Assembly (NCBI GenBank): GCA_913062955.1
Contig: CAJXZP010000012.1
Coordinates: 1 to 64,000 of the forward strand
From: an uncultured Flavobacteriales bacterium
Lineage (GTDB): Bacteria; Bacteroidota; Bacteroidia; Flavobacteriales_G; Salibacteraceae
DNA length: 64,000 nucleotides
Direction of reading: 5' to 3'
The position numbers and the translations under genes were made by a program. Under the pieces are notes generated by a model that had not been told where the DNA came from, did not search any database, and saw nothing but the letters and a program-made list of their open reading frames with translations. Shown in pieces: positions 4,443 to 52,480 of this stretch. Every line of letters starts with the position of its first letter. Positions within the stretch are counted from its first letter, which is position 1.

Positions 4443-4510
4443 CTTTTTTGGTATTTAAGATCCTATCATTAAAATAAGAAGCTTCTATTACCGTACTATT
4501 TAATGTTAGT

Positions 4511-5146
4511 TTAATTTCTTGAAGGGAATGTTCCCTGCATACAAATAACCCAATGTATAGTGAGATAAGGCTGCATATTATTATGGTATTGTGAACCCCC
4601 ATTTGGCGCATTTGTAACTGCCACATTAAGATTAGAAACATCCACCCCTAGCCCACTAGTATCTACCGATATAGCATCAATATTTAATGCAGCATTTTCT
4701 GCTGTCATGGGTGCATATAAACTTGAATCGGCCATGCCAAGAATTCCATCAGAACCATCCGTACCATTATCATTACTATCGCTACTAATACTCATCTTTG
4801 CCATAGCTGATCCAGTAATAGAACCTGTTCCACCTGAACCGGTAGCTGTGGCTAAATGCGTATGACTTGGTATTTGTAAAGTATTGAGGGTCACCGTTTC
4901 CGTACCTGATCTACTTCCCAATCTATGAGGAGATAATCCAGGCCCGGTACCTTCACTAATGGGTACTCTTCCTCGTAAATCTGGTAATGCAAATGTGGTT
5001 CTACCATCTCCTCCATAAGTGGTTCCAAGTATTGAAAATAAAGCTTGATTTTGTGCAATTGACAATAACTGCCCATTACAAAACGCCCATGACCTAGGAG
5101 GAAAATTCCCTCCAAAGCCTCTAATTTCTCCTATTGTTCCATCCAT
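4511..5146 (-). CDS. Phage tail collar-domain protein (MdpB-like), copy 1
   Basis: 211 residues. The N-terminal collar domain (about residues 5-65) shows GEIRGFGGNFPPR, WAFCNGQLLSI, LFSILGTTYGGDGRTTFALP and DLRGRVPIS, as in the phage T4 gp12-like collar family and in bacterial microcystin-dependent-protein homologues. A PSHTH motif near residue 95 and the C-terminal block NMQPYLTIHWVIC then GTFPSRN are typical of this bacterial family. The middle is Ser/Asp/Gly rich. There is no signal peptide. Its close paralogue starts at 6223, and the binding-protein-fold gene follows 68 bases after its stop. No phage head, sheath or baseplate genes are near, so this is a chromosomal family member rather than prophage debris. 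Cellular role is not established; an extracellular fibre or appendage role is inference. Confidence 0.85.
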   Translation of the reverse strand: MDGTIGEIRGFGGNFPPRSWAFCNGQLLSIAQNQALFSILGTTYGGDGRTTFALPDLRGRVPISEGTGPGLSPHRLGSRSGTETVTLNTLQIPSHTHLATATGSGGTGSITGSAMAKMSISSDSNDNGTDGSDGILGMADSSLYAPMTAENAALNIDAISVDTSGLGVDVSNLNVAVTNAPNGGSQYHNNMQPYLTIHWVICMQGTFPSRN

Positions 5147-5587
5147 AATTTGAATTCTAAATGATTAAAAAATTGAATTGACCGAGAATTAATCAAAAGG
5201 TCTTTTAATCAATAAGTTACAGCCCTCACAAAAATGGAAGTTTGAGTTTAAATTATTATACGCAAAAACACCTGTTTTATAGAATACGTAATTCTACGCT
5301 ATTCAGTTATTATCCGAAATAAAGGGAACAAAAAGAAGCGAAAAAACCTTCTGTTTTCCCATAGATTAATTCTTTACATTAATATAGAATATAAGTTATC
5401 ACAAAACACTCCACCCACCAAAATTAATATCGATCTGATTTGAAGTTCAACTATTGAACCTCCCAACCGTTACAATTTGGAATAACCCAATCCTTGGACC
5501 AGTATTAGGATGTTGAAGCTTATATACAAACCTAAAAAACAAGACGAATTCAAGATGGAACTCGTCTTGTTAAAAGAAAATAAATTT
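5147..5587. other. Intergenic region between the two collar genes
   Basis: 441 bases without a supported gene. It is AT-rich. The right end carries a hairpin terminator for copy 2 of the collar gene (5534-5571). The promoter of copy 1 is expected here on the minus strand, but no convincing TTTG / TAnnTTTG pair was seen. Confidence 0.6.
5534..5571 (-). terminator. Rho-independent terminator after collar copy 2
   Basis: Ten-base-pair stem (5538-5547 with 5562-5571), 14-base loop, and on the minus strand a T run from 5539 down to 5534. It lies 16 bases past the stop at 5588, so transcription of copy 2 probably ends before copy 1. Confidence 0.7.
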
Positions 5588-6223
5588 TTAATTTCTAGAA
5601 GGGAATGTTCCCTGCAAACAAATAACCCAATGAATAGTTAGATACGGTTGCATATTCCCGTGAGGTTGTGAACCGCCTGTATTTGAATTGGTAACTGCCA
5701 CCTTAAGATTAGATACATTAACCCCTAACCCGCTAGTATCCACCTCAATAGCACCAATATTTAATGCGGCATTTTCTGCTGTAATGGGTGCATATAAACT
5801 TGAATCGGCCATACCAAGAATTCCATCAGAACCATCCGTACCATTATCATTACTATCGCTACTAATACTCATCTTTGCGCTAGCTGCCCCAGTAATAGAA
5901 CCCGTTCCACCTGAACCGGTAGCCGTGGCAAAATGGGTATGACTTGGCATCTGCAAATCATTGAGAATCACCGTTTCGACACCTGATCTACTCCCCAGTT
6001 TTCGAGGAGTTAACCCAGGCCCCGTACCTTCACTAATAGGTACTCTTCCTCGTAAATCTGGTAATGCAAAAGTGGTTCTTCCATCTCCACCATATGTTGT
6101 TCCCAGTATTGAGAATAAAGCCTGATTCTGTGCAATCGACATTAATTGTCCATTACAATACGCCCATGCTCTAGGTGGGAAATTCCCTCCAAAGCCTCGG
6201 ATCTCTCCAATTGTTCCTTCCAT
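5588..6223 (-). CDS. Phage tail collar-domain protein (MdpB-like), copy 2
   Basis: 211 residues, the same length as the copy at 5146-4511 and nearly colinear with it. The collar domain (GEIRGFGGNFPPR, WAYCNGQLMSI, GTTYGGDGRTTFALP, DLRGRVPIS) and the C-terminal block ending GTFPSRN are conserved. The substitutions are mostly conservative (DG to EG at residue 2, SW to AW, FC to YC). No signal peptide. It has its own terminator (5534-5571), so the two copies are likely separate transcripts despite their tandem arrangement. Tandem sets of such genes are a common pattern for this family in Bacteroidota and Proteobacteria. The function is unknown. Confidence 0.85.
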   Translation of the reverse strand: MEGTIGEIRGFGGNFPPRAWAYCNGQLMSIAQNQALFSILGTTYGGDGRTTFALPDLRGRVPISEGTGPGLTPRKLGSRSGVETVILNDLQMPSHTHFATATGSGGTGSITGAASAKMSISSDSNDNGTDGSDGILGMADSSLYAPITAENAALNIGAIEVDTSGLGVNVSNLKVAVTNSNTGGSQPHGNMQPYLTIHWVICLQGTFPSRN

Positions 6224-31001: not shown

Positions 31002-31046
31002 GATAGGTACTAAAAAATACAATACTAACATTTTGCCATTTTTTTC

Positions 31047-31219
31047 CTTAACCCGAGTTCCTGGTGTAAAACAAACAAATAGGGGAGTTTTGACTAAACC
31101 AAAACACCATGATGCCGTTAATAAAACGAGTACTATTTTCGTTTATTACCCTCTATTTTTTAGGATCTTGTACCGTACAAAAACGAAGATATAATTCCGG
31201 GTATTACATTACTTGGCTC
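31047..31219 (+). repeat. Direct repeat, copy 1 (upstream region plus lipoprotein leader)
   Basis: Matches 31565-31737 with an offset of 518 bases and only scattered mismatches. It covers about 60 bases of untranslated upstream sequence and about 110 bases coding for the lipoprotein signal and the QKRRYNSGY motif. The conserved upstream part suggests the whole expression unit was duplicated. Confidence 0.8.
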
Positions 31220-31445
31220 CATTCCCACAACCTCCGTCTTCAAAAAAGGAAAGCTGATAGTGATCCGTGCAGAGGCCGGAATGTTGGGCTTCCTTTTTTT
31301 AGCTTTTGGCATGTTCCTTATTGTCTTTGGACTTAAATTACTTAAAACCGCCTTAGACTTGTTTATTGCTAAAAGAAACGATCTAAAACGAAATACTAAT
31401 TTAAATCAATCATCCACTATCAATTCATCAGATAGCCAGAAATAA
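31109..31445 (+). pseudogene. Broken small-lipoprotein gene (frameshifted copy)
   Basis: The leader from 31109 (MPLIKRVLFSFITLYFLGSC then TVQKRRYNSGYYITW) is nearly identical to the intact copy at 31627. After ITW the frame runs into unrelated residues and stops at 31336. In another frame the sequence from about 31221 to 31445 reads as a plausible membrane protein end (FKKGKLIVIRAEAGMLGFLF, LAFGMFLIVFGLKLLKT). The simplest reading is a leader joined out of frame to a different body, or a frameshift within one gene. It could also be two small genes. The upstream repeat is intact, so it may still be transcribed. Confidence 0.6.
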
Positions 31446-31564
31446 TCTAGGCTTTTCAATCCTGTTTATTTACCCATTTGTTCTAAAACAAAACTGGAAA
31501 TAGTAGTCGCAGTTTTTTGCAATACACCCCATTTGAATTTATTTCCTTGATGCATGGTGCTTTT

Positions 31565-31737
31565 CTTAACCCGAGTTCATGGTGTAAAACAAACAAATAG
31601 GGGAGTTTTGAATAAACCAAAACACCATGAAACAGTTAATAAAATTAGTGCTATTTTCGTTTATTACCCTCTATTTTTTAGGATCTTGTACCGTACAAAA
31701 ACGAAGATATAATTCCGGGTATCATATTACTTGGCAC
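31565..31737 (+). repeat. Direct repeat, copy 2
   Basis: Partner of 31047-31219, 518 bases downstream, ending soon after the codons for the ITW motif of the intact lipoprotein gene. A third, shorter remnant (about 45 bases around the KRRYNSGY codons) is at 32570-32615. Confidence 0.8.
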
Positions 31738-32343
31738 CATAAAAACAAATCCAATTTCGCTCATAATAGCCCCAACCCAAACCTATCCACTCATCGTACA
31801 AAAACTCATCGTAAGTCTATTAAAACATCCCAATTGATAGAAAAAATAAACTTAAACGCTTTCACTAAAAATTTCCCTACTACACAGTTCACCATTGCAA
31901 ATGAACCCGATAGAAAAAAAACCTCTGTGGATAACAGGGATATAGAAATGGATCTGGGCTTGTCGTATCACCAACCAACATTAGACACTCAGGAAGTACT
32001 TACCCCATGGGAGAGTGATCATAACTATTACGTAAATAAACATGGAAAAAAGGTAAAGTACCACCGTACGCTTCGTTTAACTTTAATTATCGGAGGAGTA
32101 ATACTCCTTTTATTAGGAGTAGTATTAGCGACCCTCATTTTAATACCCTTGGGCCTATCAGTTCTCATGACAGGGTTATTTCTGCGACATCCCAAAAAAG
32201 GGAACCATAATTTAACCTCCAAGCAACAGAAAAAGGCAAAAACCGATAGAAGGGTCATCGCAGTTATATTGACGATAATAGGTCTTGGTATATTATTTCT
32301 ATTAGGGATTATCATTTTAATTTCATTGTTTTTTATGTTCTAA
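31627..32343 (+). CDS. Small lipoprotein with C-terminal membrane helices (intact copy)
   Basis: 238 residues. Lipoprotein signal with Cys21 (LVLFSFITLYFLGSC), followed by QKRRYNSGYHITWHHK; a motif of this shape recurs in short Bacteroidota lipoproteins. A polar middle part contains LSYHQPTLDTQEVLTPWESD, and the C-terminus has two hydrophobic regions (about 149-185 and 212-238) separated by a basic stretch. The partial copy at 32663 shares the body (YHQPSLDTQAILT, DKNGKKKRYRKKLRNTLII). Function unknown; probably anchored in a membrane by both lipid and helices. Confidence 0.7.
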   Translation: MKQLIKLVLFSFITLYFLGSCTVQKRRYNSGYHITWHHKNKSNFAHNSPNPNLSTHRTKTHRKSIKTSQLIEKINLNAFTKNFPTTQFTIANEPDRKKTSVDNRDIEMDLGLSYHQPTLDTQEVLTPWESDHNYYVNKHGKKVKYHRTLRLTLIIGGVILLLLGVVLATLILIPLGLSVLMTGLFLRHPKKGNHNLTSKQQKKAKTDRRVIAVILTIIGLGILFLLGIIILISLFFMF

Positions 32344-32662
32344 AAAGCACCAATAAAATATATTTATGTATGCCTCCCTTTTTATTTCCTATTACCAAAG
32401 CGTCTATGAGGTCCATATAATCTATCTTTAATAGTTCGGCTTTTCATGTTAATCACATCAAAATGAGATCATTTAAAGATTTTTCAAGCTTATCACTCTT
32501 TCGGTTTTTTTTTTGAAAACAACTGGTAGTTTTCTGATTGTTGCCATAATTTTTAGTTAGTGCACCCTAGAAAAACGAAGATATAATTCCGGGTATCCTA
32601 TTACTTGGCACCCGCATAAAAGTTCAAAGTTAGCCACCAAAAAAACCAAAACCACAAAACAC
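32344..32662 (+). other. Degenerate 5' end of the third lipoprotein copy
   Basis: No intact gene. A possible old start ATG lies at 32463 (RSFKDFSSLSLFRFFF), with a stop at 32514 just at the end of a T10 run (32505-32514). One extra T would join this frame to the downstream one (LKTTGSFLIVAIIFS), which then meets TAG at 32558-32560 immediately before the lipobox Cys codon and continues CTLEKRRYNSGYPITWH into the open frame at 32663. So two lesions separate a recognisable leader from the body. Confidence 0.6.
32505..32514 (+). repeat. T10 homopolymer tract
   Basis: Ten consecutive T inside the degenerate leader of the third lipoprotein copy. A +1 change here restores one part of the frame. Confidence 0.8.
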
Positions 32663-40488: not shown

Positions 40489-43400
40489 TTAATATTCACT
40501 TTCATCTTCGTAACTATCACAATGGTACAGATGCTGTTTATTATGTTTCACCTTACGAGTGGAAGCCCCCTTCTTTTTTGCCTTTACCATGGCTTGAATA
40601 ATTCGTTGACGTTCTAATTGAATTAAATTTTGAAGTTGCATATCCTTCGATTCACTGTAATAAATGGCTCCATCAATCAATACCAGTACCGGATGTGCAT
40701 ATACCGTTAAGGGATTATCTGACCATAAAACCAAATCGGCATCTTTACCCACTGTAATACTCCCCACAGCATCTGCTATATGTAACATCTTGGCTGGATT
40801 AATGGTTACCATATTTAAAGCTTGTGTCTCGGTCATTCCACCGTACTTTATGGTCTTAGCAGCTTCCTGATTCAATCTCCTTCCCATTTCTGCATCATCG
40901 GAGTTTATAGCCGTTAAAACGCCTTGTTTAGTCAAAATAGAGGCGTTGTAAGGTATGGCATCATTCACTTCAAACTTATACGCCCACCAATCGGCAAAAG
41001 TGGAGGCATACGCGCCATGCTTTTTCATTTTATCCGCTACTTTGTACCCCTCCAAAATATGGGTGAATGTATTGATGCGGAAACCCATACTATCCGCCAC
41101 ATTCATCAACATGGTAATTTCAGATTGAATATAAGAATGGCATGTAATAAATCGTTTGTCTTCCAAAATTTCAACCAACGTTTCCAACTCCAAATCTCTT
41201 CGAGGGGCCGTCATGGTTTTTAATTCTTTTTTAGAAGCGCCATTAAATTTGGACCACTCCAGTTGATACACCTTAGCCCTATTGAACGCATCTACATATA
41301 CTTGTTCCACTCCCATTCGAGTTTGCGGAAAACGAATACTATTTCTACGATCCGAATTGGATTGTTTTACGTTTTCACCCAAAGCGAACTTGATTGATTT
41401 TGCCTCCGAAGTTATTTTTAGTTGTTCCGGCCCAAGCCCCCATCTTAATTTTATGATTTGTGCTTGCCCACCAATAGGATTAGCCGAACCATGAAGTAAC
41501 TGTACCGTGGTTACCCCACCCGCCAATTGTCGGTAAATATTAATATCATCCGGATTAATCACATCCCCAATTCTTACCTCCGCGGTATTGTTTTGCCCGC
41601 CTTCATTCACGCCTCGCTGGATGGCAATATGCGAATGTTCATCAATAATTCCCGGTGATAAATGCATCCCTGTTCCGTCAATCAATTCATATCCTGGATT
41701 AACAATAGTTTTTCCTACCCCTTCTATTTTACCATTGGAGATAGCTACCGAACCTTTAAAATTCCCGATTGAATCGCATGTCCAAATCATGACATTTTGG
41801 ATAAAATAGTTTTTCGACTCCGGTACCAAAGTATCCCCAAAGGCCATATTTGGATAAAAGGTAAACCCCTCCATCTCTTTCAATTTCACGGTATCCCCGT
41901 AATTTTTATGCGAAATATTTTTCTGTTTTATGGCCGTCCATTCACTCCAATTCCCTAGGGCATCTTGGGCTTTTCCATCCATGATTTTACCCTTATAGTT
42001 TATCTTCCCCACCATTCGAATAGGCCCGGGTTTTTTAGCTGAACCTCTTTCAAAATGGATATTAACTAAATCATTTTCAACGGTAATTAAACCATCCTGA
42101 GGTTTCTCCTCGGTACCGCCAAGAGTAGATGTAATGGTATATCCCTTTTTACTTTCCACAATATTTAAACGATACAGCACTCCCCCGTAATTCATATTAT
42201 AATTCCCAGAAGGATTCATGCTCATTGCATTGGTCAATACATTTCGTTCGCCAACGGTCCAATTTTCAAGTATTCTTCCTTTAGCCGCAAAAACATCTTT
42301 ATCGCTAATAAAGAAATTTGCCCATTTACCCGCTTCCAAAGTTCCTAATTCCTCCTCCATTTGGATGTACTTAGCCGGCACCGAAGTTAATGAAGCCAAA
42401 GCCTCATTTACAGGAAGTCCATATTGAATAGCCAATCGTAAATTGACCCAAAACTCCTTTTCCGCCCGATAAGAACTAATTGAAAACGGCACCTCATTTT
42501 TATGCATTACCGCCAAATTAGTGGGGGCTAATTCCCAATGTTTCAAATCTGCTAGTGTTACATATTCCGCATCCAAAGGATCGCTCACATCAAATGGTTT
42601 CGGGAACCGAAGAGGTAGAATTAAACGAGATCCAGATTCCTTAATCAATTTCACTCTTTTGTATTCATCTCCACCACCCAGGGTAATAAAAGGGATATCA
42701 AACTCTACACCCAATTTCGCAGCTCTAAGAATGTATTGGTAGTTACCGCCATGTATAATTTGGGGTAATTCCTTATTCTTATCTATGGCTTCTAATGAAT
42801 AATCAATAGACTTATCATCCGTGTTTTTATACCATTGTGCATCATACATCGCTTGTCTGTACAATGCGATAGCCCCCATTAATGACGTGGGATAAATTTG
42901 CGATGAATTTCCTTTACCAAAACCATAAAAAGCCGCTCCATTATTTTTTAAAACCGTATGGGCATTCATTTTATCCGATAAGGAAACAACTACCCCTGTT
43001 CCTTGCATAACGCCATTTACTTGATGGGTAAGAACCGTACCAAAACCCAATTTTCTCAAATCGGCCGCCCTTTTCGGATGGGGATGAAACATATCTCTCG
43101 CAGATGTTTGGGGATGAATAGCATCATTCCAATAGGTAGTTCCGTTATTGGTAGATACAAATTCTGGCCGAGCTGTTTTTTTCCTTTTCGGAACATCGGG
43201 CATTCCATAATTACTTGCCAGCTCAATAAACGAGGGATATATATATTTCCCTTGTAAATCAAATACCACCGCATTTACAGGGATCTCAATATTACGACCC
43301 GCAGCAACAATTTTGCCGTCTTGAATAAGTAAAATGCCATTTTCAACTTCCCTTTCGGAAGACACTACTATATGTGCATTTTTAAATGCATAAAGGGTGT

Positions 43401-43500
43401 GAATGGGAGAGTATACCCCATTCAAGGGCACCATGACTTGACCAAAAACCGGACTTACAAAAATGCCTAACAAACAGGCCATAAAAAGTTTAAACTGCAT
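40489..43500 (-). CDS. Exported two-unit amidohydrolase
   Basis: 1003 residues from the ATG at 43500, which opens a signal peptide (FKLFMACLLGIFVSPVFG|Q). The frame stays open to 43596, but that stretch encodes part of the terminator hairpin of the upstream gene, so it is rejected. The protein holds two amidohydrolase-like units. The N-terminal unit (about 45-430) ends with the typical LGTLEAGKWANFFIS but lacks HxH (YPSFIELASNYG). The C-terminal unit (from about 560) keeps PGIIDEHSHIAI near 617, CHSYIQSE near 786, NTFTHILEGYK and INSDDAEMG near 865, and ends ITVGKDADLVLWSDNP. It is therefore probably the catalytic one. Likely periplasmic metal-dependent hydrolase; substrate unknown. Confidence 0.85.
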   Translation of the reverse strand: MQFKLFMACLLGIFVSPVFGQVMVPLNGVYSPIHTLYAFKNAHIVVSSEREVENGILLIQDGKIVAAGRNIEIPVNAVVFDLQGKYIYPSFIELASNYGMPDVPKRKKTARPEFVSTNNGTTYWNDAIHPQTSARDMFHPHPKRAADLRKLGFGTVLTHQVNGVMQGTGVVVSLSDKMNAHTVLKNNGAAFYGFGKGNSSQIYPTSLMGAIALYRQAMYDAQWYKNTDDKSIDYSLEAIDKNKELPQIIHGGNYQYILRAAKLGVEFDIPFITLGGGDEYKRVKLIKESGSRLILPLRFPKPFDVSDPLDAEYVTLADLKHWELAPTNLAVMHKNEVPFSISSYRAEKEFWVNLRLAIQYGLPVNEALASLTSVPAKYIQMEEELGTLEAGKWANFFISDKDVFAAKGRILENWTVGERNVLTNAMSMNPSGNYNMNYGGVLYRLNIVESKKGYTITSTLGGTEEKPQDGLITVENDLVNIHFERGSAKKPGPIRMVGKINYKGKIMDGKAQDALGNWSEWTAIKQKNISHKNYGDTVKLKEMEGFTFYPNMAFGDTLVPESKNYFIQNVMIWTCDSIGNFKGSVAISNGKIEGVGKTIVNPGYELIDGTGMHLSPGIIDEHSHIAIQRGVNEGGQNNTAEVRIGDVINPDDINIYRQLAGGVTTVQLLHGSANPIGGQAQIIKLRWGLGPEQLKITSEAKSIKFALGENVKQSNSDRRNSIRFPQTRMGVEQVYVDAFNRAKVYQLEWSKFNGASKKELKTMTAPRRDLELETLVEILEDKRFITCHSYIQSEITMLMNVADSMGFRINTFTHILEGYKVADKMKKHGAYASTFADWWAYKFEVNDAIPYNASILTKQGVLTAINSDDAEMGRRLNQEAAKTIKYGGMTETQALNMVTINPAKMLHIADAVGSITVGKDADLVLWSDNPLTVYAHPVLVLIDGAIYYSESKDMQLQNLIQLERQRIIQAMVKAKKKGASTRKVKHNKQHLYHCDSYEDESEY

Positions 43501-43555
43501 GTCCCAAATGTAACCAAATGCCCCAAGGGTGGATAGCCACTGATCATAATTTTTA

Positions 43556-43593
43556 AACAAAAAAGGCCTGTCTGAAACCAAACAAGCCTTTTT
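43556..43593 (-). terminator. Terminator of the split T9SS gene
   Basis: Stem of about 12 bp with one mismatch (43560-43571 with 82-93 of the same hundred), and on the minus strand a T run after it. It lies 20 bases past the stop at 43613. Confidence 0.75.
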
Positions 43594-43612
43594 CATTTAA
43601 TTGTTTTCGAGG

Positions 43613-46054
43613 TTAATGCTGAACGACAAACTTCTTTTGAATACGGTAACCATCATCGGAGAATAATTCCAAAATATAGTACCCATTAACCAGATGTTCT
43701 ACCCCAATAGCAAAACCGTTTAATAAATCATCATTCACTCTTTCTTGAATTAAGGTTTGACCTGTGATGCTTATTACTTTAATGGAACAACTACTTAATT
43801 CACCTGAGGTTACTTTCACATTTACTTCTTGGTTTACGGGGTTGGGATAAACAGAGACCTTTATTGAAGGTGTTTCATCCACTAGGATTGGTAAGCCTTG
43901 TACCTCTTCATTTTTAATCTCACGCTTATTTGCAATAGGTGAGTTTGCCTTGTATGTATCTGAACAATAACCCTCTGATAAATCTTGGCTATTAATAATT
44001 GGATAAGTCTTTGGGTTACCGTAAAACCATTTTGATTTTAATTCTGTATTTTCAAGCAATGAAGCATCCGGATCCATAACAACTTCCATAGCCTCAATAA
44101 TTAAATTATAACCTTCTGCTGGTCCCACATCTCCATTGATTAAAACATTCTCGGCTTTGATGTAAATGTTATTCCCGGAAGTATTCCATACAATATCATC
44201 ATATGGATGTACAATACCATCTAATTCAAAGGTACCAGGTTTATAATTTGCCCAATTTCCTGTAAGTACATTATTACCTCCATTTTCTACAATAGTATTT
44301 GCGAAATTGCTTTCTTCGTTCAACTGATAAAGGTTATAGGTAAATACCTGAAAGGTATTTACCTGCTCATTGTTTGATCCTATTTGTTTAAAATAAAAAT
44401 CACCGGCAATTTTAAAATCTACTTTTAATATGGAGTTCTCAATATTTTCATTATTTACAAACCCATGCGAACCAAAATTGCTAAGGGACATTAGATCTAA
44501 CTGAAAAATTACATTTTTGATATCTTCTAAATTGTAAAAGCTAGAAACAAATTGAGATATTAAATACCCAGTTTCTTGATCCACATACCTATGATTCAAT
44601 TTGAAATTTCCGTAATTCATAGGTAATTGATCATAAAAAGAGTCTTTCTCAAATGCATTACTCCTAGTTTCTATCACCACAGCCCCGTTAATTCTGGTTT
44701 TTTTAAGGTCAAAATCTAATGCTGGATTTAATGCGTATTTAATATCTTTTAATTGTAATACAATTCTGGGATAATAATATGGGTTCATATCTGGTTCAAA
44801 AGTACTTACATCAAATTTTGGCGTTTCCAATAAAGCAAACAAGCCTACCACCTGATTATATGCTGGGAAATTTTGTCCCGTAATTCCATTTGGAGATTTC
44901 ATTGAACCAGGAACAATCAGAGAAACAGAAGTTTGATCTTTATTATCCGTAATGTAACCTTTAATTTTCCCTTCAGTAAAAGTAGCTACCGGCATTTGTG
45001 GTGGAGAAGGTTCTTTTTTTATTCCAAGCATCCCACTTATAAAATCTGACTCCTCAGCTAGAGCTTTTTTTGCGGAGGCTTCAATGGAATTAGCCCAATT
45101 GTTTGCTTGAGAAGTATCTTGTGGTAAAAGGATTTTACCATTAACCAATTTAATTTGATTGTTTAATAAAAAATCTCTCAAAACAGCCGTCTGCGGCACT
45201 ACTAAACCCGCAATACCTCCAGCAACTCCATCTGTTAAAGCAGCTATTGCCTTTATTTTTAATTGGTTTTCAAAACTATTATAGTCTTCAAGGTCGTCAT
45301 TATATTTGGTCAGAGCTGATTCATAAGAAGAAGATAAGCCACGCATGGTAGGATATAATACATTCCCAGATTCCAGTAAATTTCCTTCTTCATCATACAT
45401 ACTTTGAAAAAAATTCCAATATTCATCACCCATATTTGCAATGCCTTGTTCTAACTCAACGGTACGAAGCGTTAAATCTACACTCGACTCTGATGTATAT
45501 TTAAAGTTCAAAAGCATACTACTTGCAAACTGGCATTGACATACATCATACCCTAGCTGAAATTCAGCTACATACCATTCATTAGGACCGTTTATTCTTT
45601 GTTTGCGTGCACCTTTAAGTTTTGTGATTTTAGTGGGTTGGTTTAACGGGCGGTCAATTCCCTCGGCATGACGAAAAATTCCAGAGATTATCCTCTTATT
45701 TACATTCTGATCAGGAAACTCAAGACTTACAGTAACATCTTGCCAATTGTTAGCATCATCGCCCCATGCGCTAAAAAACACCCGCATTAAACCCGTATAT
45801 CGGTTATACAATACCACATAAGGCGAATTGTTAGCAGTTGGTTGCTCAGAATCGGTATTCCAATACATTGAAGGGTCTGATTTTTGATCAATCGGAGTTC
45901 CATTCGGTAAACTACCTATATTTAAATACAATAACTCCCAACCATCTTCCCAATGCCAATCTTTTTCATTGTCATTTAAAAAATGAATTCCCGGGTCTGG
46001 ATGATAATATAGATACCCTGTTTCAGTATTACTATTAGAAAAAAACCAAGGCAT
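43613..46054 (-). CDS. T9SS cargo protein, main body of a gene split by a stop codon
   Basis: 813 residues from the first ATG after the stop. There is no signal peptide on this piece, yet it ends with a clear type A sorting domain (about 730-813: IKVSVYPNPVNQEVNVKV, IKVISITGQTLIQE, VNGYYILELF), which only makes sense on an exported protein. The missing signal and first 80 residues are in the same frame at 46324-46082, separated by a single TAG (46082-46084) and ten sense codons. So the gene is one unit of about 903 codons with an in-frame amber codon. If the codon was once TGG the protein would read NWNSWFLRNG, which fits the Trp-rich surroundings. The body is beta-rich; domain unknown. A terminator follows. 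Confidence 0.75.
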   Translation of the reverse strand: MPWFFSNSNTETGYLYYHPDPGIHFLNDNEKDWHWEDGWELLYLNIGSLPNGTPIDQKSDPSMYWNTDSEQPTANNSPYVVLYNRYTGLMRVFFSAWGDDANNWQDVTVSLEFPDQNVNKRIISGIFRHAEGIDRPLNQPTKITKLKGARKQRINGPNEWYVAEFQLGYDVCQCQFASSMLLNFKYTSESSVDLTLRTVELEQGIANMGDEYWNFFQSMYDEEGNLLESGNVLYPTMRGLSSSYESALTKYNDDLEDYNSFENQLKIKAIAALTDGVAGGIAGLVVPQTAVLRDFLLNNQIKLVNGKILLPQDTSQANNWANSIEASAKKALAEESDFISGMLGIKKEPSPPQMPVATFTEGKIKGYITDNKDQTSVSLIVPGSMKSPNGITGQNFPAYNQVVGLFALLETPKFDVSTFEPDMNPYYYPRIVLQLKDIKYALNPALDFDLKKTRINGAVVIETRSNAFEKDSFYDQLPMNYGNFKLNHRYVDQETGYLISQFVSSFYNLEDIKNVIFQLDLMSLSNFGSHGFVNNENIENSILKVDFKIAGDFYFKQIGSNNEQVNTFQVFTYNLYQLNEESNFANTIVENGGNNVLTGNWANYKPGTFELDGIVHPYDDIVWNTSGNNIYIKAENVLINGDVGPAEGYNLIIEAMEVVMDPDASLLENTELKSKWFYGNPKTYPIINSQDLSEGYCSDTYKANSPIANKREIKNEEVQGLPILVDETPSIKVSVYPNPVNQEVNVKVTSGELSSCSIKVISITGQTLIQERVNDDLLNGFAIGVEHLVNGYYILELFSDDGYRIQKKFVVQH

Positions 46055-46081
46055 TACGATGTCGTTTCCATTACGAAGAAA

Positions 46082-46324
46082 CTACGAATTCCAGTTTTGC
46101 TCTTTAGGGATCACCACTTGATTTCCTGGATACCATGAAAAACCAGTATTAATATAACTACCTACATCATTCGGGTACCATGAACTCCATTCTTCATTTA
46201 TTGGATTTTCTGGGTTTGTACTTATTTCACGTATAAGATTGCCGCAGCCATCTGTTTTTTCTTGGGCAAAAACACCGAAGGGATTACGTACAAAAATACC
46301 TAATATTATATAAATATTTTTCAT
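46082..46324 (-). pseudogene. N-terminal fragment of the split T9SS gene
   Basis: 80 residues: signal-like start (NIYIILGIFVRNPFGVFA|Q), then EKTDGCGNLIREI and a Trp-rich stretch (EEWSSWYPNDVGSYIN, FSWYPGNQVVIP), ending NWNS before TAG. The reading frame is the same as in the downstream body. The signal peptide carries Arg and Asn in the middle of its hydrophobic core, another sign of decay. It starts 22 bases after the stop of lipoprotein A, so it belongs to the same operon. Confidence 0.65.
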
Positions 46325-46346
46325 ATTGTTTTATTGAGTTAAACTG

Positions 46347-47210
46347 TTACGGGAGTTTTATTCCCCTAAATGTATGCCATAGGGTATCAGGCATCTTATT
46401 GTACTGATTGTCTCTTACTCTGTAATGCATATAAAGAGTCCCATCATTTAATACTTCTATTTCTCCTTCTGTATTTCCAGCAAAAACTCCATTTGCGTTT
46501 ACACGAAAGGAACTACCATATTCATCAAATTGGTTTAAAAAGGGAGTAGCTTCGGAAACCGTATCTCCCAAATTATGAAAATTGACAGTCATCATAAATT
46601 GTTTCGTCCAATCATCTACAAACTCATTTACCAATTCACCACTGGTCATATCACACATGTATAAACCAAGTTCAAAACTATCCGTTTCATTATCTATTAC
46701 TCCTCTAAAAGAGCCATAAGTACCCAATTCATCCCACCGTTTTATTAAATAAAAAGACTGGGCTACGGAATCGTATCCATCATCATCTGAAAAACAAAGG
46801 GTATCAGGTTCATAACGTATCACATGGCTAACGGTAATGGTAGCAGGTCTTGAAACAGACTCATATCTTCTACTAGGTGGGTTTTGGGTGTAAAAAACTT
46901 CTGAGCCTATATACCAAGTGTGTTGAAATTTTTTTGCACTTAAATCGGAAGACAAATCAATTTGAAAACCTCTAAAAATATCGTCTTCCCAACTTATATA
47001 TTCACCATTGTGTAAAAAACCATCTGTCATTTTAAACTTGGCACTAGGTAACTCCGCACCGTAACAGGGATCAAAATTGACACATTCCGGATTAGACGGA
47101 TCTGTACATGGACAAGGTTCTGGTTCCTCTTTTTTACAGGAGCCAATAGCTAATAAACTTATGGTTAATGCAATGGTAAAAAGTATATTAATATTGAATT
47201 TATTGATCAT
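46347..47210 (-). CDS. Lipoprotein A, paired with the fibre protein
   Basis: 287 residues from the ATG at 47210. Lipoprotein signal ending LLAIGSC, followed by KKEEPEPCPC. The mature part has NFDPCYGAELPSAKFKMTDG, a beta-rich body (YRVRDNQYNKMP, DTLWHTFRGIKL) and Cys pairs. It is paralogous to lipoprotein B at 49322 (NYDPCYNVEKPSAKFLMKEG, DVGYDSVVQSFTL). The start codon lies within the last codons of the upstream fibre gene (QNDQ stop at 47200), an overlap of 11 bases, so translation is probably coupled. A longer frame to 47243 simply reads the fibre gene in another frame. Function unknown; likely surface or outer-membrane anchored. Confidence 0.75.
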   Translation of the reverse strand: MINKFNINILFTIALTISLLAIGSCKKEEPEPCPCTDPSNPECVNFDPCYGAELPSAKFKMTDGFLHNGEYISWEDDIFRGFQIDLSSDLSAKKFQHTWYIGSEVFYTQNPPSRRYESVSRPATITVSHVIRYEPDTLCFSDDDGYDSVAQSFYLIKRWDELGTYGSFRGVIDNETDSFELGLYMCDMTSGELVNEFVDDWTKQFMMTVNFHNLGDTVSEATPFLNQFDEYGSSFRVNANGVFAGNTEGEIEVLNDGTLYMHYRVRDNQYNKMPDTLWHTFRGIKLP

Positions 47211-48306
47211 TTTGTAGTTGGTTAACTTGCTTTTGCATTTCAATGAGGTGTAAAGTTAACTCCTCCATCTTTTGTAACAAAATGGCATTCATTTCGGCTA
47301 GTTCAATACCGTCTTTGGTAACCTCCGCAGCAGATGGAACCCCTGGTAAATGACTGTTAGCATCCATGTATTCTTCGGTTTCCGTTAAAGACATCAACTC
47401 ATAAGATTTTTCAAACACATAATCAGGCCAATTGCTATATGCATCTACTTTAACCGTTGTAGCTCTTACACCACCTGCAACGTATAGGTCATAGCCGCTT
47501 GCTGTTACGCTAATATCGGAAGCTGGACCTCCTATTCTTACTGGCATCGTGAAAAACGTTTGCCCATTATTGTTAGGATCCCAAAACTCCAGAATATTTG
47601 CAGAGGTAGGATGGTTTGCCCCTACGGCACGAATGGTAAAAGCTCTTTTATCAGATCCCGATTGAGCTGGGTCAATAAATGCTAGGTCTACAAAAGTTTT
47701 AGAAGGGTCTTTTCTAACGGTAATTCCATTGGCATTGGCTGTAAAACGCACTTGATTTAGCATGTTAGTGGTTCCACTAACCGTACCCGATGGGTTCGTC
47801 ATTACTAGAAATTCTCCAGAATTCGTAGCGAATAACGCGGCCCCTGAACCGTTCCACGCTCCCGAAACACCAAACTCTTTTAAACCTAATGATAAAACAT
47901 AACCAGTAGCACCGTTGGGTGTCATTACTTCACCAAAATGACCAAAATCATTCACCAATAGCTTACCCATCACCTGAACATAATCTTTAGTAAGGGTAAA
48001 TCGCTTTATTGGAGTTCCTCCATTTTTATTGTAATAAAAATGTAATTGTGAGCCAAAGTCCTGTTGCATGTCCCATTGGTAGAGATCAGCGGTTTGAGTA
48101 TTTGTACTAAATCGCAGCTGAGGAACATTTCCCAAACCAGTTCCTGCTATTCCTGCGCTTTCTCTAATTTCTAAATTTCCTGAGGGGGTGGATATACCAA
48201 TTCCCACTTTATTTCCAACCTGATACAGTTGAGAAAACCCTGTAGATGAAACAAAGCCACAGGCAACAAAAAGACATGATGATTTTAAGAATAAGGATAA
48301 TTTCAT
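47200..48306 (-). CDS. Tail-fibre-like secreted protein (full-length copy)
   Basis: 368 residues. Signal peptide at 1-26 (FLKSSCLFVACGFVSSTGFS|Q). The N-terminus continues VGNKVGIGISTPSGNLEIRE, the hallmark start of many Bacteroidota fibre-like surface proteins. The middle is a beta-rich fibre region. The C-terminus (about 275-368) has LYVAGGVRATTVKVDAYSNW, PDYVFEKSYELMSLTETEEY, HLPGVPSAAEVTKDGIELAE and a coiled coil (LLQKMEELTLHLIEMQKQ). It resembles phage tail-fibre ends in Bacteroidota genomes. The last 97 codons are identical at the DNA level to the truncated copy at 49629-49312. A G10 tract lies 95 bases upstream. It overlaps lipoprotein A by 11 bases. Confidence 0.8.
   Translation of the reverse strand: MKLSLFLKSSCLFVACGFVSSTGFSQLYQVGNKVGIGISTPSGNLEIRESAGIAGTGLGNVPQLRFSTNTQTADLYQWDMQQDFGSQLHFYYNKNGGTPIKRFTLTKDYVQVMGKLLVNDFGHFGEVMTPNGATGYVLSLGLKEFGVSGAWNGSGAALFATNSGEFLVMTNPSGTVSGTTNMLNQVRFTANANGITVRKDPSKTFVDLAFIDPAQSGSDKRAFTIRAVGANHPTSANILEFWDPNNNGQTFFTMPVRIGGPASDISVTASGYDLYVAGGVRATTVKVDAYSNWPDYVFEKSYELMSLTETEEYMDANSHLPGVPSAAEVTKDGIELAEMNAILLQKMEELTLHLIEMQKQVNQLQNDQ
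47208..47489 (-). repeat. 282-bp identical direct repeat, copy 1
   Basis: Perfectly identical to 49320-49601 (offset 2112). It spans the last 94 or so codons of the full fibre gene and ends exactly at the ATG of lipoprotein A (47210-47208); beyond that the lipoprotein sequences diverge. At the other end identity stops at the codons for LYVAGG. Confidence 0.9.
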
Positions 48307-48400
48307 GGTTGAAAAGAATTATTGTTTTAAGATTAATTTAGGCCGAAAATTAAAAAACCAGGTATACTTTTTCACTAAGTAATTTTTCCTAAAATGATAA

Positions 48401-48410
48401 GGGGGGGGGG
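48401..48410 (-). repeat. G10 homopolymer tract upstream of the fibre gene
   Basis: Ten consecutive G on the plus strand (C10 on the coding strand) in otherwise AT-rich DNA, between the stop of lipoprotein B (48501) and the ATG of the fibre gene (48306). Length-variable tracts of this type are known as phase-variation switches in other bacteria; that role here is inference. Confidence 0.85.
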
Positions 48411-48500
48411 TAATTACCTAGTTGCTTCATCCCAAAATTTGAAAAAACAGGATTGAAATAACGCTAAGTACGAGTTTATTTTTAATTTATTTAAGATTGG

Positions 48501-49322
48501 TTAATCTAATTTCCGTCCTCTAAAAACATAGGTAGCTTCGGTCGGGTCCATGTATTTAGTGGTAGAATACTCCATCCGAAAGGTTTTATCGTTATACACT
48601 TCAATAGTACCTATGACCTTCCTCGTAAAAACGGCCTTGTGATTGTAACCGATCATAGATACCCATCTGTCCCATATAGAAGATACAGTTTCTGTATAGG
48701 TAAATACGGAGTCACCCCTATTATGAAAATTGATAAATAAATTTTCATAATGGTCATGAAAAGATGCCGGGTTTCCCATTTCATCAACACTTATAATTTC
48801 TACCACAAAACTATCTTGTTGCCCCTCAATGAGTCCTTTAAATTTACCATAGGTTTGAAAGTCATTAATACTGCTAACTAAAGTAAATGACTGCACAACA
48901 GAATCGTACCCAACATCGTTCGGGTAGCAACAGGTATTTGCCTTGTACTCTATAACGTGAGTCACCTCTATTACCTGAGGACGAATAATACTAGGATCGT
49001 CAAACCGTCTTCCTGGAGTTACTCTTCCAGTAAATGTCTCCGTACCCAAGTACCAGCGGTGTTCAATATCTGGGTCTTCTAATTCAGATTCAAACCAAAT
49101 ATTATACCCTGCCATTACCGAATCTGCAAACACATAATCAGTTCCATTTCTATAAAAACCTTCCTTCATTAAAAACTTAGCCGAAGGTTTTTCAACGTTG
49201 TAACATGGATCGTAATTTTCGCAATCCTCATTTTGCGGATCATGACACTTTTTACAGCCACCTAAAAAAAGAAACGCAGATAAAAAGGTGAAGATGACAA
49301 TTTTAAAAATATTATTTCCCAT
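48501..49322 (-). CDS. Lipoprotein B, paired with the truncated fibre copy
   Basis: 273 residues from the ATG at 49322. Lipoprotein signal ending LFLGGC (IVIFTFLSAFLFLGGC), then KKCHDPQNEDC. The mature part shares the layout of lipoprotein A: NYDPCYNVEKPSAKFLMKEG, HRWYLGTETFTG, EVTHVIEYKANTCCY, DVGYDSVVQSFTL, and a C-terminal beta region ending FRGRKL. The start overlaps the stop of the truncated fibre copy (LQNGK stop at 49312), the same coupling as in the A module. The sequence upstream of the ATG is identical to the A module, while the coding part is clearly diverged, so the two are paralogous cassettes. Confidence 0.75.
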   Translation of the reverse strand: MGNNIFKIVIFTFLSAFLFLGGCKKCHDPQNEDCENYDPCYNVEKPSAKFLMKEGFYRNGTDYVFADSVMAGYNIWFESELEDPDIEHRWYLGTETFTGRVTPGRRFDDPSIIRPQVIEVTHVIEYKANTCCYPNDVGYDSVVQSFTLVSSINDFQTYGKFKGLIEGQQDSFVVEIISVDEMGNPASFHDHYENLFINFHNRGDSVFTYTETVSSIWDRWVSMIGYNHKAVFTRKVIGTIEVYNDKTFRMEYSTTKYMDPTEATYVFRGRKLD

Positions 49323-49629
49323 TTTGTAGTTGGTTAACTTGCTTTTGCATTTCAATGAGGTGTAAAGTTAACTCCTCCATCTTTTGTAACAAAATGGCAT
49401 TCATTTCGGCTAGTTCAATACCGTCTTTGGTAACCTCCGCAGCAGATGGAACCCCTGGTAAATGACTGTTAGCATCCATGTATTCTTCGGTTTCCGTTAA
49501 AGACATCAACTCATAAGATTTTTCAAACACATAATCAGGCCAATTGCTATATGCATCTACTTTAACCGTTGTAGCTCTTACACCACCTGCAACGTATAGG
49601 TATTGTTTAAACCGGAGATCAAACAACAT
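49312..49629 (-). CDS. 5'-truncated copy of the fibre gene
   Basis: Only the C-terminal part of the fibre protein remains (LYVAGGVRATTVKVDAYSNW through the coiled coil ending LQNGK), with a short unrelated lead-in (LFDLRFKQY). Read from the ATG at 49629 it has about 105 residues; the frame stays open to a TTG at 49665, but that start lies inside the terminator of the upstream gene. There is no signal peptide. It is probably a remnant of duplication that may still provide coupling to lipoprotein B, or a non-functional gene end. Its 282-bp identity with the full copy argues for a recent duplication or gene conversion. Confidence 0.6.
   Translation of the reverse strand: MLFDLRFKQYLYVAGGVRATTVKVDAYSNWPDYVFEKSYELMSLTETEEYMDANSHLPGVPSAAEVTKDGIELAEMNAILLQKMEELTLHLIEMQKQVNQLQNGK
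49320..49601 (-). repeat. 282-bp identical direct repeat, copy 2
   Basis: Partner of 47208-47489. Ends at the ATG of lipoprotein B. The 1.83 kb between the repeats hold lipoprotein B, the G10 tract and most of the full fibre gene, which recombination between the repeats would delete. Confidence 0.9.
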
Positions 49630-49640
49630 AGAAGAAATAT

Positions 49641-49673
49641 CAAAAGCCTCTTGGTAAAACACCAAGAGGCTTT
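49641..49673 (-). terminator. Terminator of the lamin-tail T9SS gene
   Basis: Perfect 13-bp stem (49643-49655 with 49661-49673) and five-base loop; a short T run follows on the minus strand. It lies 21 bases past the stop at 49694 and separates that gene from the truncated fibre module. Confidence 0.85.
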
Positions 49674-49693
49674 CTAAAATATTCTAATCGAAT

Positions 49694-52480
49694 TTATTTC
49701 AGTACAATTTGACTGACTTCAACCACTCCAGTTGAAAGAGTTGTTCTCACAAAATAGAACCCAGAAGATAAATTTGAAGTCGTTAATTTCATCACATTGG
49801 CGTTAGCCGATTTTGAAACTAATTGCTTTCCATTAGCATTCATCACCTCCACACGCTGCAATTGATTGCCTTCAGATAAGTAACTTATTACAATTTCATC
49901 ATTGGCATAAAATACTTTTAATAAATCTGGATTCACCTCATCCATACTCGTTACCGAACCGGTAGAATCGGTAGATCCACTACCCGTATTAGCAGAGGAA
50001 TCATTTCCTTTTTGATGTACAATATGTAAGTAAAAACGATTAGCCCATTCTTTAGGAGCACTCGAAAAAGAATACCCACCTTGCTTCAAATTATGAAAAG
50101 AACGCATGTACCTATCCTCTAACAAAACATCCTTATCTGCAAATGAACCCACCAATGAATCCAAGTTTATAGTATACGTGGATGTTTGATACGTTTGAAA
50201 ATATAAGGGCACTATCCGATTATCGTTTGTTAATTCACTATATCCATTAAATACCAGTTTTTGATCATCTACCTTGGAACAAAAGTTAAAATCACTATTT
50301 GGCAACTTTAAAGCATCAAAATTCTTATCGTATCCATCTTCCGAATCCCTATCAAAGTAAATACGTGTCGGATCATTTTCTCCATGGGCATCCACCACAT
50401 CCAGATAAACCCCAAAATACGAGAGAACACTTCTAAAGTCATTATTTGTGTGATGACGCATACTATTGGTAAACGTAACCGTAGATGCCTGGCCGTCCGT
50501 ACTTGTATTTCCATTTACATAAAACCCTTGACCCGAAGCCAAATAATTGGTGGTATGGCTTTTATTATAAGTATCGTAAGATGTAGCGGTGTTTAAACCG
50601 TTTCCTGGATTGTACAAATACACAGCATTATCAATTTTTCCGGTACCCGAATTTGCGGTTAAAAACCCCTCTACCGAAATAGAGGAAGGATAAGGATTAC
50701 TGATCAAATTCCAATCGTTTGAACCATCACTAGGTGTCGTTGAGCTTCCAAAAATATCCACCGTAATATCTCCGTTATTTAAAACACCTCCGGAAGCAAT
50801 CGTGAAGTTGTGGGTATTGGAAGAGTGACCCGGAATGAAGTACCCTCGACCCACATCAAAATTTCCATCCGGAGTTCCTTCCGAACTAACCGTGGTAATA
50901 GTCATTCCAGATGTAACGGTGTAAAAGGTGCCATTACAATTCAAGGACCCTCCAATAGTTTCATCGTACTTCCAGGATTGGGTAGAAGCCTCAAACACAT
51001 ACATGTCACAATTGAAATGATTGGTAAACACAGACTGTAGATCTAATGCGGTTGCAAAAGGAGTTCCCCAAGCATTATAATCTACAGATGAATTGTAACC
51101 GGTTTTTTCTATTGTAATGGAACCTGAACACGTAAAACTTCCGGTCCCTGTTACGGACAAAGAACCATCATGTTTCACAAAAATTTCATCCGAAACCACA
51201 ATATCTTCATTCAATACATCCGTACCTGCATCCGCCATTATAGTCAGTGATTTTAATACAGAGCCATCGTTAAATGGCGCTTGACCATCCACCACAATTG
51301 CCACTCCCGATCCTGTTAAACTAGATGGTTCGGTATCTGCAAATCCCGTTGCTCCGGCCCAACCCCCATTAGAATAGACCAAATCCACATTAATAATATC
51401 TTCCGTATCACCCAAATATCCAGGGGTAGCATTAGATTGATCATCTATATTATTGGTCCAGTTACCTGCGGGCATTTGGTACACTCGTTTCGCATTACTG
51501 GTGGCATTGGATGAACTCCCGTCAATTAAAGTGCCATCATCGGTATCTGCGGTTCCACCAATGCGAATGGTAAACGTATTGTTATTTCCAAAAGCATTTA
51601 TACCTGTTCGAATGTAAATAACATCGGATGCTAATGCTATGGTATTCCCAGTAATAGTGGACCAAGTAGACTCAAAATTAGATGAACTCGCATCTCTATT
51701 TAAAATTAAAAAACCATTCGCAGAAATATAAGATCCTCCCAGGATATCGGTTCCAAAATCAATCACTTCATTATTGGACCCACTTGAAACAATTTTAGCA
51801 TTGGATAAATCAATGTTAGAAGAAGTTGCATTATGAATCTCTAGATACCCATAACTTGAATTGCTATGCCTCGCATATTCTGTTATGTATAAATCACCCG
51901 TGCTAGGTGTATTATAACCCGTAGAGGCCGTCACAGAAACATTATCAAACCGATGTTTTTCAACATCCGCATTATTATCTACACGAATAACGATTTGAAT
52001 ACTGGTACCGGATAACGCATTTTCAGAAGCGGTAAGCGAAGTGAAGGTTCCTGGATTTTCACCGTTGGTTGTAAACGGAAGCTCTGTACCATTTTCGTTT
52101 AAAATATAATATACGTTCATATAATCACTAGACTCCATGGTTCCTGTATGAGAAAGGTCCACACTTAAATCGACTAATCCTAAACCATCAATATCACATA
52201 ACTTGGATTTCCAAACCACCTCTCCATCGGTATCTCTTGCTTCAAATAACTCATTGGATGAGACGGTTATGACCTTAAAATAATCTGTTGTGGCGGTGAG
52301 TGAAGCAGATGAAATATCCATGGTCCAATCCATTCCTACCGTATCATAAGTGGGTGTAGGTCCACTAGCACCTTTATCTGTATCCCCTGTAAAGGTTTCT
52401 GAATAGGGCAATTGCGCAAAAGAGAATACGGGGATTAGGGTCAGTAAAACTAAGGAGAGAAGGCGTGTTAATTTTTTCAT
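49694..52480 (-). CDS. T9SS cargo protein with lamin-tail domain and shared GNPYPS-type module
   Basis: 928 residues. Signal peptide at 1-22 (LLSLVLLTLIPVFSFA|Q). A jelly-roll-like region (about 25-190) precedes a lamin-tail domain near 196-340 (GDLYITEYARHSNSS, YLEIHNATSSNIDLS). From about 461 to 673 it has a module shared with the genes at 58165 and 61290: YNAWGTP, FNCDMYVFE, DVGRGYFIPG, LNNGDI, WNLISNPYPSSI, SGQGFYV and FTNSMR. The last 80 residues are a type A sorting domain (LLKVFYANDEIVISY, VEVMNANGKQLVS, SGFYFVRT). Probably surface exposed. The function is unknown. Confidence 0.85.
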   Translation of the reverse strand: MKKLTRLLSLVLLTLIPVFSFAQLPYSETFTGDTDKGASGPTPTYDTVGMDWTMDISSASLTATTDYFKVITVSSNELFEARDTDGEVVWKSKLCDIDGLGLVDLSVDLSHTGTMESSDYMNVYYILNENGTELPFTTNGENPGTFTSLTASENALSGTSIQIVIRVDNNADVEKHRFDNVSVTASTGYNTPSTGDLYITEYARHSNSSYGYLEIHNATSSNIDLSNAKIVSSGSNNEVIDFGTDILGGSYISANGFLILNRDASSSNFESTWSTITGNTIALASDVIYIRTGINAFGNNNTFTIRIGGTADTDDGTLIDGSSSNATSNAKRVYQMPAGNWTNNIDDQSNATPGYLGDTEDIINVDLVYSNGGWAGATGFADTEPSSLTGSGVAIVVDGQAPFNDGSVLKSLTIMADAGTDVLNEDIVVSDEIFVKHDGSLSVTGTGSFTCSGSITIEKTGYNSSVDYNAWGTPFATALDLQSVFTNHFNCDMYVFEASTQSWKYDETIGGSLNCNGTFYTVTSGMTITTVSSEGTPDGNFDVGRGYFIPGHSSNTHNFTIASGGVLNNGDITVDIFGSSTTPSDGSNDWNLISNPYPSSISVEGFLTANSGTGKIDNAVYLYNPGNGLNTATSYDTYNKSHTTNYLASGQGFYVNGNTSTDGQASTVTFTNSMRHHTNNDFRSVLSYFGVYLDVVDAHGENDPTRIYFDRDSEDGYDKNFDALKLPNSDFNFCSKVDDQKLVFNGYSELTNDNRIVPLYFQTYQTSTYTINLDSLVGSFADKDVLLEDRYMRSFHNLKQGGYSFSSAPKEWANRFYLHIVHQKGNDSSANTGSGSTDSTGSVTSMDEVNPDLLKVFYANDEIVISYLSEGNQLQRVEVMNANGKQLVSKSANANVMKLTTSNLSSGFYFVRTTLSTGVVEVSQIVLK

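Follow-up and report, generated by a model that had tools for sequence, protein, structure and literature searches.

Phase variation in Bacteroidota is known mainly from DNA inversions. Among the closest described systems, Vpma of Mycoplasma agalactiae and Vsp of M. bovis combine Xer1 inversion at a 72-bp site with one promoter and an archive of genes (PMC2268961). For the surface proteins Kgp, RagAB and FimA of Porphyromonas gingivalis, recombination and allelic exchange have been demonstrated across strains (PMC5266723). The locus described here lies in the window, a 64,000-nucleotide stretch of DNA from an uncultured Flavobacteriales bacterium (genome G000); it was compared with two congeners (G001 and G002) and with further genomes, among them G042 from another family. 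With moderate confidence it is read as a phase-variable, partly duplicated operon of a fibre-like gene (F), a lipoprotein gene and a gene for a T9SS-secreted protein (T), present in an inserted block and with lipoproteins that recombine.

Repeat R and the two modules

The block (R-lipA-F-lipB-T, window positions 43613-49693, edges approximate) is read from the minus strand, as are the features inside it. The complete F (47200-48306, 368 aa) has a signal peptide, a beta-rich body and a conserved C-terminal module of ~95 residues ending in a coiled coil. It is followed by lipB (46347-47210), a surface-type lipoprotein of 287 aa, to form module B. In module A, lipA (48501-49322), a paralogue of lipB with an intact frame of 273 aa, follows a truncated F remnant (49312-49665) that is devoid of a signal peptide and in which the F part consists of the last ~94 codons (49312-49601). 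The F stop and the lipoprotein start overlap by 11 nt in modules A and B alike. The layout given by an earlier sequence-only reading of this DNA, with fibre ends overlapping lipoprotein starts and one fibre gene complete, the other without its 5' part, is thus correct.

Repeat R is present in direct orientation at 47208-47489 (module B; end of F and ATG of lipB) and at 49320-49601 (module A; end of truncated F and ATG of lipA). The two copies are identical at 282 of 282 bases, in agreement with the earlier claim of an identical 282-bp repeat. The claim that identity ends at the lipoprotein ATG also holds: the ATG falls inside the identical segment, and when the comparison is stretched to 290 bp three mismatches appear, all immediately 3' of the common ATG. 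In the orthologous module of congener G002, F is 66% identical to the F protein of the window and its tail has 79% DNA identity to either copy; at an expected divergence of ~20% the probability of 0/282 differences is about 1e-27. Because the congener tail stands at 79% and the copies in the window do not differ, the identity points to recent recombination or duplication (a duplication, a conversion or an import from a close strain) rather than to conservation. R was also considered as a special recombination site and rejected, since its 5' edge is the F truncation point. Its 5' limit results from the truncation of the first F there, at the block edge, and the 282 bp would be the remainder of that gene. 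A recent duplication or homogenisation of the two F copies would account for the identity, whereas lipA and lipB may be too diverged for conversion.

It is very improbable that the assembler duplicated or misjoined the 282-bp segment of this metagenome-assembled genome. The draft does consist of 131 contigs and R is longer than a typical short read, but the flanks of R have no sequence in common that could have led to a misjoin at 49601/49602, and both R junctions in one chromosome give a single linear order, the one reported (loop topology). Moreover, lipA and lipB are different genes, which requires a real second junction, and lipoproteins of the family stand behind F ends in many independent assemblies.

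The lipoproteins are diverged paralogues, as had been proposed, with 37-41% of residues in common (37% by BLASTP, E 2e-57) and about 61% of DNA. Identity to the lipoprotein of G002 is 46% for lipB and 39% for lipA; a tree places the three at similar depth and leaves the order of lipA plus lipB versus the G002 copy open (83/68). The genome of the window holds no further lipoprotein of this family, the total being two. The idea of an archive of hidden lipoprotein copies was accordingly rejected, as was a plasmid origin of the lipoprotein, for which nothing was found. Neither Pfam nor NCBIfam gives a match to the lipoprotein above cut-off, and the PDB gives no sequence match. Its structure model (pLDDT 79) has weak PDB matches, the best (E 2.8e-3) being a surface glycan-binding protein, followed by factor H-binding protein and lipocalins.

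F likewise has no Pfam or NCBIfam match above cut-off and no PDB sequence match, and its AlphaFold model (mean pLDDT 57.8) is confident in the C-terminal helices only. The term 'fibre' of the earlier reading therefore stands for a resemblance and not for a family, and is kept as a nickname. A search against PHROG gave a single, insignificant match (E 0.09), and none of 50,697 phage records matched F. Since nothing matching was found in phages or viral contigs, a phage origin was rejected; F also gave no tail-fibre or S74 match that would place it among phage tail fibres or S74 chaperones. F and the lipoprotein may well act at the cell surface.

Other repeats are present in the window. Positions 19-1230 hold a sequence present five times in tandem, one copy every 228 bp, with 62-70% similarity over 300 bp. 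Two paralogous ORFs of 211 aa share a 300-bp stretch at 87% (4510-4809 and 5587-5886, 1077 bp apart), and repeats of 85-180 bp with 78-93% identity lie in and around a small ORF (31043-31760 and 32550-32634).

Insertion of the block and probable recombination of the lipoproteins

The block (about 43.6-49.7 kb) is missing from the corresponding site in both congeners, in which the genes on its two sides are adjacent: the orthologue of the T9SS gene at 49694-52480 is directly followed, after 113-123 bp, by the orthologue of the amidohydrolase gene at 40489-43596. The F operon of G002 sits on a different contig from the empty site. The empty site in both congeners argues for an insertion of the block in the lineage of the window or, less simply, for its loss from the site in both relatives. 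No target-site duplication was seen at the insertion edges. The flank x was considered as a repeated element and rejected, its 92 bp as a whole having no close counterpart elsewhere. A terminator-like hairpin of the upstream T9SS gene (49641-49675, fold z-score -5.3) lies about 40 bp before module A, and the first F is cut at the block edge about 40 bp past this strong terminator. The operon may have entered as one block, preceded by a second module of which the end of F and lipA are left. Module A has a terminator just upstream; lipA is without an F 5' part and has no visible promoter, and the gene is probably silent.

The sequence-only reading had proposed recombination or gene conversion through a constant region with variable lipoprotein cassettes. 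The identity of R and the mosaic lipoproteins of six other genomes (see below) uphold the recombination and the modular nature of the lipoproteins; exchange at this locus is not upheld. A cassette system, in which recombination brings different lipoproteins behind a constant fibre end and the surface lipoprotein is changing now, is improbable. It would account for an identical R next to diverged lipoproteins, for adjacent direct repeats and for constant-5'/variable-body paralogues in other genomes, but the genome contains only two family members, lipA has neither a visible promoter nor a complete F, and no recombinase is present among the neighbouring genes examined. Direct repeats, moreover, delete or amplify and never exchange, and a swap of the lipoproteins is excluded from the preferred model for this reason. 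Intramolecular crossing-over of R by R would leave x-R-lipB, with loss of lipA and the F 5' part. Unequal crossing-over would amplify lipA-F-R, so that lipA came to follow a complete F. For lipA to convert lipB, homology is missing on the 3' side. The window contains no inverted repeats of at least 40 nt.

Lipoprotein paralogues within single genomes are mosaics, and six other genomes hold copies with a constant 5' part and a variable body or the reverse. In G337 the signal peptide and mature start are 90-100% identical and the body about 60%; copies in G130 show alternating patches of 90-100% and 55-70%; G137 and G313 have a constant 5' part; and in G005 and G042 a constant upstream part with a variable body and a variable upstream part with a constant body are both found. 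Synonymous third positions, too, are better conserved in the 5' part of the G337, G130, G137 and G005 paralogues (Fisher p 0.009 to 3e-5), so that constraint at the protein level alone is insufficient; the same test is not significant for lipA/lipB, one G130 pair, one G005 pair and G313. The lipoproteins may diversify by recombination between paralogous modules. As a separate observation, several contigs (C14 and C5 of G130, C36 of G042, C22 of G137 and C49 of G273) end in or beside these lipoprotein genes, as recent duplicates would.

The operon family and repeats at the start of F

Searches with profiles built from the end of F and from the lipoprotein covered loci in some 20 genomes, that of the window included. 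They show an operon that recurs in many Bacteroidota: it is headed by F and continues with one to three lipoproteins in tandem and, last, a T9SS-secreted protein. Of the 58 lipoprotein genes read, 25 have F directly upstream, at no more than 85 nt, and a further 11 stand behind another lipoprotein gene; in 22 related loci a T homologue lies downstream of the lipoprotein gene. T itself (43613-46324), the third gene of the operon, encodes a T9SS type A secreted protein with a Por_Secre_tail; its C-terminal sorting domain (TIGR04183/PF18962) scores 34.8 bits against a cut-off of 23 and 44.1 against 27. T is split by an in-frame TAG at 46082-46084, either a real nonsense mutation or an assembly error, and the operon may therefore be decaying here. 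The family would represent a chromosomal surface-protein operon, with a fibre-like secreted F, a lipoprotein and a T9SS-secreted protein, spread through Bacteroidota. It has no name in the libraries searched, and a literature search found no paper on such an operon nor on slippage loci in Flavobacteriia.

The genome of the window has a second F operon (contig 34, locus L238) with the order F, T9SS protein and a lipoprotein of a different family; the sequence of this lipoprotein gene is cut off where the contig ends, at a G12 tract. On contig 118 (L234) there are two paralogues in tandem whose ends are constant and whose variable central part includes an in-frame G10 tract, and the two contigs probably join. 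Together they hold three paralogues built in this way, with tracts of G10-G12, and the contigs end inside these repeats.

A C10 tract (48401-48410; G10 on the plus strand) precedes the F start by 95-104 bp and is a candidate slipped-strand switch. It is adjoined by a conserved box, CAACTAGGTAA (48414-48424), common to the window and G002, and C10 is also present at the matching place in G002 (positions -104 in G000 and -99 in G002). The shortened motif CTAGGTAA-N0..6-C7 occurs at one place each in G000 and G002 and in none of 40 other genomes of the order. Separate G/C tracts of at least 10 number seven in 3.9 Mb, four of them tied to F operons (the tie on contig 118 being inferred). Promoters of Bacteroidota have the consensus TAnnTTTG at -7 and TTTG at -33. 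The F promoter of G002 is a full one of this type (TTTG-N18-TAGCTTTG, 46 nt past C10), whereas that of the window has a -7-like element, TAATTTTC (48345-48352, 48 nt past C10), which matches 5/6 of TAnnTTTG and has no good -33. Because the core promoter of the window is degenerate, an effect of C10 on transcription is a candidate only. C10, which does not figure in the sequence-only reading, would nevertheless be a better candidate for a switch at this locus than a swap of lipoproteins.

Slippage-prone repeats at the 5' end of F were found in three lineages (G000/G002, G042 and G005) and are of three kinds, each in the coding start or the promoter region, as in a simple sequence repeat contingency locus. 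In G042, three F paralogues have poly-C tracts of 5, 6 and 11 directly behind ATGAAAATTTTA; none of these lengths is in frame with the signal-peptide reading, and one gene could start at a later ATG. In G005, two F genes have a TC run after ATGCTACGA, in frame in one, with (TC)8, and out of frame in the other, with (TC)12; two further genes bear this leader too; 1.56 Mb of other loci contain no other (TC) runs of six or more. At loci L117, L119 and L121 of G005 the start leader ATGCTACGA(TC)n is identical, with n of 8 or 12, on four genes of which two are not F; it is possibly a shared, phase-variable start. Repeat lengths differ among paralogues and set them in or out of frame, and the length of C10 is the same in both species of the window's genus that carry it. 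In other lineages such a repeat is missing from most F genes.

That three lineages each have their own kind of repeat where F begins is the pattern expected of a contingency locus. Slippage of short repeats at the F 5' end (here C10, about 100 bp before F) would make expression of the F operon phase-variable. An unlikely alternative to this phase-variable operon is that part of a tandem array entered a single time between two conserved genes, with the first F cut in the process, and is now a decaying relic in which nothing varies. The empty site in both congeners, the truncated F, the missing second T and the TAG in T are in keeping with such a relic; the intact frames of lipA and lipB, an R identical despite diverged lipoproteins, the conserved C10 box and the repeats at F in two other lineages speak against it. 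More tentatively, the phase-variable operon may belong to a widespread, undescribed class of contingency operon in Bacteroidota, with two layers of variation: switching on and off by lineage-specific slippage repeats at the F start, and lipoproteins diversified through recombination in constant stretches at gene junctions, including a RecA-dependent amplification by way of R that would turn on the silent lipA.

Comparison with known systems

If slippage operates as proposed in this operon family with its mosaic lipoproteins, environmental Bacteroidota would also use slippage-based switching of the surface, coupled to T9SS cargo and probably under pressure from phages or grazers. The locus resembles Vpma and Vsp in sequence conserved up to the start codon, a constant signal peptide, variable lipoprotein bodies and a homopolymer near the promoter (PMC2268961). 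It differs from them in that the repeat is a 282-bp direct one made up of the coding sequence of another gene, with two genes; site-specific inversion of that type finds no counterpart here, as the window holds no inverted copy or pair of at least 40 nt and the neighbouring genes examined include no recombinase. Nor does the locus have the form of silent-cassette gene conversion (vlsE or pilS type), as there is one extra copy, with homology on the 5' side only and no others in the genome. A short repeat tract near the promoter of a surface-protein gene is shared with the poly-G of tprL in Treponema pallidum (PMC7864442) and with nadA of Neisseria and sabA of Helicobacter pylori (PMC2791445 and PMC4081817). 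Unlike these, the present case, known from sequence alone, is a Bacteroidota operon with T9SS cargo, and its type of repeat differs by lineage. The proteins are unrelated to those of the P. gingivalis mosaics, and recombination is deduced here from paralogues; what the two have in common is that surface proteins of Bacteroidota appear to be diversified by recombination.
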